Positions 13,891 through 17,768 of a DNA stretch of 64,000 bases are shown piece by piece. The notes beneath the pieces are model-generated. The model saw only the letters and a list, made by a program, of their open reading frames with translations. It ran no database searches and was not told the DNA's origin. Each line of letters begins with the position of its first letter. Positions within the stretch are counted from its first letter, which is position 1. Position numbers and translations under genes: made by a program. Origin of the DNA: Lentisphaerae bacterium GWF2_38_69 (GTDB lineage: Bacteria; Verrucomicrobiota; Lentisphaeria; Victivallales; GWF2-38-69); the NCBI GenBank assembly GCA_001803205.1, contig MHBE01000029.1:1-64000 (forward strand). The letters run 5' to 3'.

Positions 13891-14024
13891 TTATTTGGTA
13901 TAGCAGTTAGGATATTCTTCCAGGTAATCTTTACTCATAGCGAAAGCTTTCCCCCCCCCAGAAAAGAAATATATTTATTGGTACAGGCAGAGCATTTTCC
14001 TTTAAGGTTGTTTCTATCTTGGAG
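13891..14024 (-). pseudogene. Decayed C-terminal SPASM-domain fragment with G9 tract
   Basis: On the minus strand, directly after the HlyD-like gene stop, an open frame reads LQDRNNLKGKCSACTNKYIS, then FLGGG; in the next frame it continues KAFAMSKDYLEEYPNCYTK and stops at 13891-13893. Joined, this closely resembles the C-terminal end of radical-SAM SPASM proteins (family pattern KGkCgaCeyk.iCGGCRaRAYa.tGDyl.eDP.C). The frame change falls in a run of nine G (C9 at 13951-13959); ten G would join the two halves. The CGGC cysteines are lost and no radical-SAM body exists upstream, so this is a relic of a larger gene. Confidence 0.6.
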
Positions 14025-14025
14025 A

Positions 14026-15063
14026 TTAATAAAAGAGAATGTCGACAGGAAGACAGGCAATCTTGTATTTATGAGGAATATTTTCTTTAGGGAGTACCCT
14101 TATAAGGATTTTCTTTTTATCGCTCGATACTATGTTTGATCTTGATGGATCCATTTCAGCGAAAATGGGCGTTGCTGAAACTATTCCTTTTATCTTTTCT
14201 CCATCAGGAAATAAAATGTTAACCTCCTGATTTGCTTTGAGCTTCTTTGATAGGAATTTGGACTCCACATAGGCTATTATGTAAATGTTTCTGTTAACAA
14301 CTATGATTGCAATGTCTTGGCCATCTTTTACATATTCATTTTCATGAATAACAACTTTTGCCAGAGTTCCTGCTTCAGGAGCTTTTATCGTCAAGAGTTC
14401 GAGAGATGTTTTAAGTATTTTAATCTTTGCTTCCGTTGCTCTTATATTCTTGTCAAAATATTCTTCACTCTGAAGTTTCTTATTAGTTTGGAGTTTGGCA
14501 ATCTCTCTATCTAAAGCTTTGTAGCCTTGAGTAGCAGTGTTCAGATCATAAAGAGCTTTTTCTATATTTGCAATGCTTGTCTGCCCTTTTGATTTAAGGT
14601 CTTCCCATACTTTGAGATAATATTTACTGGATTCCATATATTTTGCGGCTTCTGTTCTGGCAATTAGCAGATGGTTTAATTCGGAATCATCACTAAGCAG
14701 TTTTTTTTTCTTCTCTTCTAGTGTGAGGATTTCTTCATCCAGAGTTCTAAGCTCAGATAAGAGCTGTGGACTGGAAAGCAGCATCAAAGACTGACCTTTC
14801 TCAAAAGAATCTCCGGGAGTTAAAAGTACCTGGTCAACATATGCATTTGAAGGGGAGCGAAGAACAACCTCGCCAAACATAATATGCCCATTCGCACTCA
14901 TCAGAAATGTATCAGTGAAAATTTTGTAACCAAGATAGACAAAGGGAGAGAGAATCATTATAAGCAGAAGATACCAGTAAACTTTAGACAGATGTCTTTT
15001 GCCAGGAGCATAGCTTGGAGATTGCTGAAGTTTTTGATCTTTATGTTTAAAATTGAAACTCAT
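14026..15063 (-). CDS. HlyD/membrane-fusion-like protein of polysaccharide locus
   Basis: A 345-residue protein with one N-terminal membrane helix (about 28-52, YWYLLLIMILSPFVYLGYKIF), a biotinyl-lipoyl-like half motif (VVLRSPSNAYVDQVLLTPGDSFEKGQSLMLL), a long coiled-coil hairpin (about 100-215), the second half motif (LTIKAPEAGTLAKVVIHENEYVKDGQDIAIIV) and a beta-barrel domain (YVESKFLSKKLKANQEVNILFP). This is the HlyD/EmrA layout; similar proteins (Alg44, BcsA-associated adaptors) act as periplasmic parts of polysaccharide export. No PilZ domain is seen. It follows the glycosyltransferase gene by 18 bases, so it probably helps pass the glycan across the envelope. Confidence 0.82.
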   Translation of the reverse strand: MSFNFKHKDQKLQQSPSYAPGKRHLSKVYWYLLLIMILSPFVYLGYKIFTDTFLMSANGHIMFGEVVLRSPSNAYVDQVLLTPGDSFEKGQSLMLLSSPQLLSELRTLDEEILTLEEKKKKLLSDDSELNHLLIARTEAAKYMESSKYYLKVWEDLKSKGQTSIANIEKALYDLNTATQGYKALDREIAKLQTNKKLQSEEYFDKNIRATEAKIKILKTSLELLTIKAPEAGTLAKVVIHENEYVKDGQDIAIIVVNRNIYIIAYVESKFLSKKLKANQEVNILFPDGEKIKGIVSATPIFAEMDPSRSNIVSSDKKKILIRVLPKENIPHKYKIACLPVDILFY

Positions 15064-15081
15064 TAGCTTTACTTATTAAGT

Positions 15082-16416
15082 TTAATTTGTTTTTCTGATT
15101 ACCCACCAGGGTGCCATGCTAGTGTCTTTATGAGTTGAGAGAACAAACTCAAGAATCGTAGCATAAGCTGTATTTATTCTCATTATATATTGATAAATAG
15201 GCATAAGCGGTAGATAAAGTAAAAATTTTATATCATTTTTCTTTCTTTCAGATACAAATGCCAGGTAAAGAAAAAATAGAGCAGTAGTAGAAAACAAGTA
15301 ATAGATATATGTCAATATGAGCATAGTACTAGCAAAGCTTGGAGAGAATTTAAAAAAAAGCCATATGGTATAAATGATAGTCAGGAACGGAACGCACAGG
15401 CAAAACATAAAATCATACCAAACAATAGCAAAGAGGTTTTTCCATCCAATATTTTTGGGTCTTAGTATTTTTCTGTAACGCTTGAAATAGAGAAAAGAAA
15501 GATCGCCGTCCCATCTTTGGCGCTGTTTGAGCAGTTTGCTCCAGCTTTCAGGTCCGTCTGTATGCATTGTAGATTCATATGTATGAATGATTTTGAGATT
15601 AGGATAACTTTTGAGATATGCTTTGATCCTTGTTGTCATATCGAGATCTTCAGCAGTTCCGTTTTTCCAGCCACCTATAGCCTGTATGAAACTTTTCCTG
15701 AATATTCCATGCGCTCCAGATATATTATTGAGCATTCCGAGTTCTGCCAAACCGGTTTTTGATAATTGCAACCCGATCATATATTCGAGAGCCTGGAATT
15801 TTGTAACCAGACTTGCATTCCAGTTTCTAATTCTGATATTTCCTGATGACCCTACAACATTAGGATTCGCAAAACCTCTGACAGCAGAAGCTACCAGATC
15901 ATTATCCAAAGAGCAGTCGCCGTCGACAATTATTATTATCTCTCCTTTTGAAATGGATAAGCCGAGGTTGTTTGATGAGACTCTGCCGCCGCGTAATTTT
16001 TTTGGAATTACCCTTATATAACGAGAACTGTACTTATTCTCAGCATGATACTTATTTGCATAATTCAAAGCAGCTAGATAAGTAGATTTATTGATGTCAG
16101 AACCGTCTACCATGACCAGAATTTCTATATTTCCTTTGTAAAGTTGTTCGACCAGGGATCGGATTGTGTCGAGTATGGCTTTTCCTTCGTTATAGCATGT
16201 TATTATACAGCTGACAGTCGGGAAATAGTTCACCGGAGCAGACCAGAGAAATACATCATTCCAAAATTTTTTAATATAAGAAGTAATTATTAGTAAGTAG
16301 AGCGGTATCTCAAGGAAAATAACGATAGGGAAGACAAAGACATACAGTTTCCAGTATTCTTCATAGTTCCAGTACATTGTCAGGTAATAGAGGATCTCAT
16401 TCCAATATCTGTTCAT
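15082..16416 (-). CDS. Processive family 2 glycosyltransferase (PgaC/BcsA-like)
   Basis: A 444-residue membrane glycosyltransferase. N-terminal helices (about 24-48), then a GT-A catalytic domain with the processive D,D,D,QxxRW set: MVDGSD (102-107), VDGD (164-167), TAEDLD (254-259), QRQRW (298-302); three or four more helices follow, from about 330. Size and layout match PgaC/IcaA poly-N-acetylglucosamine synthases better than the larger BcsA, and no C-terminal PilZ domain is present. It should polymerise a beta-linked glycan from a nucleotide sugar and thread it through the inner membrane. Its start overlaps the preceding gene by 4 bases. Confidence 0.88.
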   Translation of the reverse strand: MNRYWNEILYYLTMYWNYEEYWKLYVFVFPIVIFLEIPLYLLIITSYIKKFWNDVFLWSAPVNYFPTVSCIITCYNEGKAILDTIRSLVEQLYKGNIEILVMVDGSDINKSTYLAALNYANKYHAENKYSSRYIRVIPKKLRGGRVSSNNLGLSISKGEIIIIVDGDCSLDNDLVASAVRGFANPNVVGSSGNIRIRNWNASLVTKFQALEYMIGLQLSKTGLAELGMLNNISGAHGIFRKSFIQAIGGWKNGTAEDLDMTTRIKAYLKSYPNLKIIHTYESTMHTDGPESWSKLLKQRQRWDGDLSFLYFKRYRKILRPKNIGWKNLFAIVWYDFMFCLCVPFLTIIYTIWLFFKFSPSFASTMLILTYIYYLFSTTALFFLYLAFVSERKKNDIKFLLYLPLMPIYQYIMRINTAYATILEFVLSTHKDTSMAPWWVIRKTN

Positions 16417-17768
16417 AGTTGGCCAGCGATAGCTGCTATGAGCTCTTCAGCTGATTTATCTGAAATATTTTCTTTGGTTGAAGAGAATGAAGCTATTTTA
16501 ATGTCAAATTTGCCTTTGTTTAATGATATGTTTTTTAGGAAGGTTTGGATTTTATTTTGAATAGATTGTAAGGCTTGCGCATCTGATTTCGGAAAGAAGA
16601 AAATTAATGAATTTATATCTAATTTGGAGCACAGATCCGTTGTTCTAAATAACTGACGGAGCATTTTTGAAAATTCTAGAATAAGATCGTACGCAGAAGT
16701 TGTTTCATCGAGTACAAATTTAAGAGCGATAAGACTGAAATAGTCTTCGGGATATCTTCTTTGTATTTTTATATACCAGTCAATGTTGAAAATGAAATGA
16801 TTTATTTCTAGGTAGTTAAGTTCATTAACAATTAGATTTATAGAATTTATTGTGCCGAATCTTATCTGATTTCTGCCGTATTCGGTAAGTTTATATTCAT
16901 AAATGAGTTTTTTGCTCAAGTCTTCGGTTGAGCAGCTCTTATGACAGGTCAAGCATTCTATTTTAAGTTTACTCTCAATATGATATGTCCCACAGTCATT
17001 GCAAACGCCATTTTCAAGAGGCCTGTCATAATCTTGGCCTATTAGTTTTAGTTTTGATTTGCATGATGGGCATACAAACCTTTCGTTTTTCAGGAATTTG
17101 CTTTCAGGTCCCACATATCCGCATGTGAAGCAGTGAATAAACTTTTCATTTCTTATATTTATACTTCCGCAGTTTGGACAATGGTCACTGAATTTTAATA
17201 GAGCTGAAAAGCAATAAGGACAGCAGAAAATCCTGTCAACTAGTTTGACTTTTGACAGGATATTCTGAGAAGCCATATCCTCAAGCCAGTAAAAGTAATC
17301 TTCCTGACCGTCATAGAACTGTTCTACCAGAGGGTAGTAGTAGAACATCGGTTTTTGTTTGTCTAGTTTTGGAGCAATTGTAAAATCCGGGCGTGTGTAG
17401 AAATAAGCAAGTATCCTATTCTCCCAAGTGGAATAATGATGGTGTTCTATTTCCGTGCAAAGGCTTTTTATAGCTATAACCTGCTCTTTAAGTTTAGCCG
17501 CTGCAATTGGAGTTTCATAAAATAGAAAATTCCCATCTTCCTCGAAAAATATCGGGAATACATAGATTTTATCAGATTGCCTTGCAACTTTAATATATGA
17601 CTCTATTATTTCCATTCCAAGCAGAGTGGAGAAAACGGCAACATCAAATTCATTATCAGACTTTTGAAAATCATCAATAGAATCAAAACAGGTAACATTT
17701 TCAAAATAGTCTTTCAGTAGTTTTATAACAAAATCTTTTTTAGTCGGAGCGATATAAACTAAATTCAT
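16413..17768 (-). CDS. TackOD1-like zinc-ribbon protein with degenerate GGDEF
   Basis: A protein of ~451 residues if started at ATG 17768 (the frame stays open to TTG 17828, adding a hydrophobic stretch that does not belong to the first domain). Residues ~1-100 look like a degenerate receiver (MNLVYIAPTKKDFVIKLL). Residues ~183-280 hold six CxxC pairs (CPYC, CPNC, CFTC, CPSC, CNDC, CLTC), a zinc-ribbon array like the Thaumarchaeal output domain 1 (TackOD1). The last ~75 residues resemble a GGDEF fold (TTDLCSKLDINSLIFFFPKSD) lacking the GGDEF motif, so no cyclase activity is expected. Inference: a regulator, perhaps nucleotide-sensing, of the glycosyltransferase whose gene it overlaps. Confidence 0.65.
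   Translation of the reverse strand: MNLVYIAPTKKDFVIKLLKDYFENVTCFDSIDDFQKSDNEFDVAVFSTLLGMEIIESYIKVARQSDKIYVFPIFFEEDGNFLFYETPIAAAKLKEQVIAIKSLCTEIEHHHYSTWENRILAYFYTRPDFTIAPKLDKQKPMFYYYPLVEQFYDGQEDYFYWLEDMASQNILSKVKLVDRIFCCPYCFSALLKFSDHCPNCGSINIRNEKFIHCFTCGYVGPESKFLKNERFVCPSCKSKLKLIGQDYDRPLENGVCNDCGTYHIESKLKIECLTCHKSCSTEDLSKKLIYEYKLTEYGRNQIRFGTINSINLIVNELNYLEINHFIFNIDWYIKIQRRYPEDYFSLIALKFVLDETTSAYDLILEFSKMLRQLFRTTDLCSKLDINSLIFFFPKSDAQALQSIQNKIQTFLKNISLNKGKFDIKIASFSSTKENISDKSAEELIAAIAGQL

Follow-up and report, generated by a model that had tools for sequence, protein, structure and literature searches.

The three genes studied here lie on the minus strand at positions 14026–17768 of the window, that is, the 64,000-nucleotide stretch of Lentisphaerae bacterium GWF2_38_69 contig MHBE01000029.1 that was analysed, where the initial annotation had placed them. 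The first gene (16413..17768) encodes a 451-residue protein, counted from the ATG, with a degenerate receiver, predicted zinc ribbons and a predicted degenerate GGDEF domain; we refer to it as the TackOD1 protein. It is followed by the gene for a processive-type GT2 synthase of 444 residues (15082..16416, minus strand) with membrane segments at both termini and the catalytic motifs of this class, and by that for an HlyD-like periplasmic adaptor of 345 residues (14026..15063, minus strand) with one N-terminal membrane helix and a lipoyl/barrel-sandwich region. The reported overlap between the zinc-ribbon gene and the synthase gene amounts to four bases, a common ATGA, and 18 bp separate the GT2 stop from the HlyD-like gene. 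Promoter and terminator scans of the locus gave no signal above shuffle level. Just 3′ of the HlyD gene, an AT-rich stretch contains a run of nine G (13951–13959, minus strand), possibly a slippage site or an assembly feature.

A profile search confirmed the assignment of the first protein as TackOD1-like. Residues 111–294 match PF18551 with 205–208 bits at a cut-off of 32, which excludes a chance match. This domain (16887..17438, minus strand) contains all six of the annotated CxxC pairs (residues 183, 197, 213, 233, 256 and 272) along with an invariant His, and the family alignment shows the Cys pairs and this His to be conserved as strictly as the I-site described below. An AlphaFold2 model built from 40 sequences (pLDDT 89) consists of a receiver-like N-terminus, the zinc-ribbon part and a C-terminal domain of alpha/beta type. 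Its 50 best matches in the PDB (Foldseek) are GGDEF proteins only, and several of these structures were determined with c-di-GMP. A profile of the family's C-terminal domain alone likewise retrieves diguanylate cyclases from the PDB (E 9.3e-11). The Pfam GGDEF model scores below threshold with the protein from this genome (11.9 bits) and above threshold with a Stutzerimonas homologue (27.4 bits). By sequence homology and predicted fold, the C-terminus is thus a degenerate member of the GGDEF superfamily. The initial annotation was right in recognizing a GGDEF-like domain without the GGDEF motif; the domain spans residues from about 306 to 451 (16416..16853, minus strand) and not the last 75 residues only.

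The N-terminal domain (residues 1–110; 17439..17768, minus strand) is a weaker case. Searched alone, it finds CheY/PhoB receivers as its nearest structures (probability 0.99, E 0.016, TM about 0.6), so that the annotation as receiver-like holds at the level of a weak structural match. The phospho-acceptor Asp at the end of strand 3 is absent from this domain, and we can therefore rule out a functional two-component regulator. Arg 63 of the same domain is invariant in a diverse alignment of 40 homologues (40/40). The TackOD1 protein has no GAF match in Pfam and no clear transmembrane segment. Legionella gresilensis encodes a 758-residue chain with two TackOD1 stretches (L039:7755-10031).

In GGDEF enzymes, the inhibitory site (I-site) is an RxxD motif whose Arg and Asp precede GGEEF by nine and six residues (PMC2170427). 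The TackOD1 protein contains RTTD (R375..D378; 16635..16646, minus strand) at precisely this distance from DINSL (16605..16619, minus strand), the sequence that replaces GG(D/E)EF. Since this motif is lost here and in all 82 homologues, we can exclude an active diguanylate cyclase. The Arg and Asp of the predicted I-site are nevertheless both kept in 76 of the 82, including the protein from this genome. In the 40-member alignment, R375, D378 and R338 are invariant (40/40; residue numbers are alignment positions plus one), and the residue 31 positions after the I-site Arg is basic in 39 of 40 sequences (R in 34, K in 5). Here this residue is K406 (16551..16553, minus strand) and not Arg; together with RTTD at −9/−6 it completes the sequence signature of an I-site receptor. 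Profile alignment places the RxxD on the RxxD I-site of the cyclase structures 6zxm and 3ign, which according to their entry titles were both solved with c-di-GMP. The spacing of R375, D378 and the +31 residue equals that of R359, D362 and R390 in PleD.

Two observations temper the significance of this conservation. In a small control, RxxD was present in 7 of 10 active GGDEF domains, and position 382, a further basic residue near the I-site, is conserved as well (K here, R in 36/40). Retention of the I-site may therefore be partly structural or ancestral. Furthermore, the six homologues without an I-site, all from this organism's own order, keep both the zinc ribbon and the operon, which shows that c-di-GMP is not indispensable to the cassette.

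The assignments of the second and third genes as GT2 and HlyD were both borne out by profile matches. The synthase resembles PgaC, hyaluronan and cellulose synthases. Its intact catalytic residues (D104, D165xD167, E256D257 and Q298xxR301W302) and transmembrane segments identify it as a processive GT2 synthase, and these residues are kept in 66–68 of 68 homologues. The best NCBIfam match is PgaC, with 114.7 bits against a family cut-off of 422. The protein is therefore not a member of the PgaC family, and a PNAG operon can be ruled out.

Relatives of the TackOD1 protein were found in genome contigs by an alignment-based scan; a single-protein scan gave none. At least 553 contig stretches encode such a relative. 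Among the best 80 of these, 76 loci contain GT2 and HlyD homologues beside the TackOD1 gene, and in 65 an outer-membrane efflux (OEP) protein is encoded there as well. Of the four unlinked loci, two are contig ends, and the only well-flanked locus without GT2 or HlyD is gammaproteobacterial (L056); its TackOD1 homologue has an I-site, and neither partner was found within 8 kb. Linked loci occur in Pseudomonas, Nitrosomonas, Legionella, Francisella, Desulfobacterota and Synergistaceae, with variable gene order and constant linkage. Because the profile behind this set had been built from linked examples, we also ran the Pfam model on 338 genomes of the phylum. Nine of them, including this one, scored above the cut-off, and all nine have linked neighbours, although in one (G008) the contig stops within the HlyD gene, short of any GT2 that might follow. 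Homologues of the three genes are thus not scattered apart, and the proposed operon partnership of regulator and synthase is kept across several phyla.

In most relatives the operon includes a fourth gene coding for an OEP-domain protein of about 700–1050 residues with a 260-residue tail. This tail contains the motifs FDGLHLDIEP and MxY, which resemble those of TIM-barrel glycosidases such as GH18. Its best PDB match is a putative glycoside hydrolase at a borderline E of 0.0022 (PelA: E 0.6), and neither Pfam nor the PDB names it firmly; the FDGLHLDIEP motif in particular suggests that the tail is glycosidase-like. The fourth gene is absent from this genome's family, and the Legionella and Francisella cassettes likewise showed no adjoining OEP gene. 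Hence, the locus was correctly described as lacking a linked outer-membrane component. The description as compact fits the three genes present here; the four-gene cassette, which does include such a component, is nonetheless the commoner form, and the present one a shorter variant of it. TolC-type OEP proteins are encoded elsewhere in this genome, unlinked, and probably provide the outer-membrane channel. Within the order, OEP proteins of about 1040 residues occur at L014:5800-8946 and in L015, L016 and L019. Weak beta-propeller signals were seen in the L015 protein (DUF5050) and in a shorter L018 protein (PD40), and the L014 tail reads LDIKP, with Lys where others carry an acidic Glu.

The genome encodes two GGEEF cyclases, one REC-GGEEF and one PAS-GGEEF, and gives six HD-GYP matches. 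Profile searches detected no EAL domain in the genome and no PilZ domain, the latter neither in the operon, as the initial annotation had noted, nor genome-wide, which argues against a PilZ-controlled synthase. Within the order, the four I-site retainers carry 5–28 matches to c-di-GMP turnover genes and the six losers 0–5 (exact one-sided p 0.0095; ten incomplete genomes, uncorrected for phylogeny, from lineages that are not independent). Three of the six loser genomes contain at most one weak GGDEF match, no EAL and no HD-GYP. Elsewhere, turnover genes adjoin the cassette itself: the TackOD1 gene of Legionella L050 shares bases with a PAS-GGDEF-EAL gene; the Francisella L094 cassette has three GGDEF-type genes at its flanks, with GGDEF-EAL adjoining; in Thioalkalivibrio L082, a phytochrome-GGDEF gene lies near the cassette, and L099 has a similar GGDEF gene. 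Another genus of this family encodes a GGEEF-motif protein divergently from, and adjoining, the cassette (L012:13460-14974), which there also includes two HlyD-like genes and a 332-residue unknown. The PAS-GGEEF cyclase of the present genome (L101:5545-6480) sits in a neighbourhood running from serS to a CTSAPYTNRSQL lipoprotein; the corresponding region of the sister genus (L013/L020) contains the TackOD1-GT2-HlyD cassette.

Taken together, these data make it probable, though by no means certain, that the operon encodes a synthase-dependent system for exopolysaccharide that is controlled by c-di-GMP, with the TackOD1 protein as soluble c-di-GMP receptor. The initial annotation had proposed that the zinc-ribbon protein takes the place of the usual c-di-GMP/PilZ control. 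The reverse is probably true: the I-site is kept while the catalytic motif is lost, and in a genome with cyclases and without PilZ the role of c-di-GMP receptor more likely falls to the TackOD1 protein. According to this model, the membrane-embedded GT2 would polymerize and translocate a glycan, which the HlyD-like protein would pass across the periplasm to an OEP channel, operon-encoded in most relatives and here probably an unlinked TolC-type protein. The cytosolic TackOD1 protein would bind c-di-GMP at the I-site of its degenerate GGDEF domain, and its zinc-ribbon and receiver-like parts would transmit the signal to the synthase, licensing it in the manner of PelD or BcsE. Within this scheme, we infer c-di-GMP binding, contact with the GT2, activation as the direction of control and an exported polysaccharide as the product. 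Judging by its layout, the Francisella L094 locus may correspond to F. novicida FTN_0451-0456. In an F. novicida strain without FTN0451-0456, an expressed cyclase reportedly still raised biofilm, which points to another c-di-GMP route in that organism.

The zinc-ribbon/receiver protein might instead control the synthase through metal, redox or phospho-signalling in which c-di-GMP plays no part. The invariance of the Cys pairs and the His would fit such a role, as would the six relatives in which the I-site is gone but zinc ribbon and operon persist, and an archaeal TackOD1 census lists no GGDEF partner (PMC5847659). This reading is unlikely, given an I-site that outlasted the catalytic motif in 76 of 82 homologues, a receiver without phospho-acceptor and a genome with cyclases and no PilZ. 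We consider it more improbable still that the protein is a scaffold or assembly factor of the GT2 complex whose GGDEF remnant is a ligand-free dimerization fold. The frequency of RxxD in active GGDEF domains and the dispensability of the I-site in part of the order would be compatible with such a function; selective invariance of the I-site residues within an otherwise drifting domain is not what it predicts.

A different objection concerns the product, which could be a cell-wall or lipid-linked glycan or an envelope modification rather than a secreted polymer. No outer-membrane exit is linked to the cassette here, in Legionella or in Francisella, as this idea would have it. Against it stand the same-operon OEP protein with glycosidase-like tail in most relatives and the resemblance of the GT2 to PgaC, hyaluronan and cellulose synthases, and we regard it as quite unlikely.

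Beyond this genome, the chances are about even that the TackOD1-GGDEF proteins of Pseudomonas, Nitrosomonas, Legionella, Desulfobacterota, Synergistota and the lineage studied here represent a widespread, undescribed type of cytosolic c-di-GMP receptor, with every member serving exclusively a GT2-HlyD(-OEP/glycosidase) machine for exopolysaccharide. The zinc ribbon would touch the membrane machine, and some lineages poor in c-di-GMP genes would have lost the ligand site. The literature searched for TackOD1 or the zinc ribbon in connection with GGDEF, GT2, HlyD or exopolysaccharides yielded the archaeal census only, in agreement with the initial impression of an undescribed system. If correct, the proposal would add both an exopolysaccharide system and a type of c-di-GMP receptor to those known, in many genera, well-studied ones included. 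It would also assign a first concrete role to the orphan TackOD1 domain and explain how c-di-GMP could be read in genomes with cyclases but no PilZ. The natural I-site losses make the receptor idea directly testable.

Several known systems share parts of this architecture. The archaeal TackOD1 response regulators have no described GGDEF or GT2 partner (PMC5847659). The F. novicida FTN_0451-0456 locus makes and breaks c-di-GMP and is linked to biofilm (PMC3952080), in keeping with the GGDEF-type genes around the L094 cassette. The PgaC/IcaA PNAG synthase is the best NCBIfam match of our GT2, yet this match is far under the cut-off and the operon contains no PgaA, PgaB or PgaD. Alginate production, which is under c-di-GMP control, also combines a GT2 synthase (Alg8) with a periplasmic membrane-fusion partner (Alg44) (PMC8461298). 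In Alg44, however, PilZ and adaptor form one protein; the present operon encodes its adaptor separately from the sensor, which is not a PilZ protein. PelD is a further parallel, as a c-di-GMP receptor for exopolysaccharide production with a degenerate GGDEF domain, RxxD, a second Arg and no PilZ (PMC2170427, PMC8461298). It has four transmembrane helices and a GAF domain, both unmatched here, and Pel uses the GT4 PelF and PelG instead of GT2/HlyD neighbours; the TackOD1 protein is therefore not a PelD. Nor is it a BcsE, as it has no BcsE Pfam match and no bcs genes beside it. Still, this regulator of enterobacterial cellulose secretion is likewise cytosolic, combines a degenerate receiver with a degenerate GGDEF domain, binds c-di-GMP at an RxxD I-site and serves a GT2 synthase (PMC7439463). 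BcsE carries an additional N-terminal domain and acts on BcsA alongside a PilZ, whereas in the present protein the TackOD1 zinc ribbons sit between the receiver and GGDEF domains.
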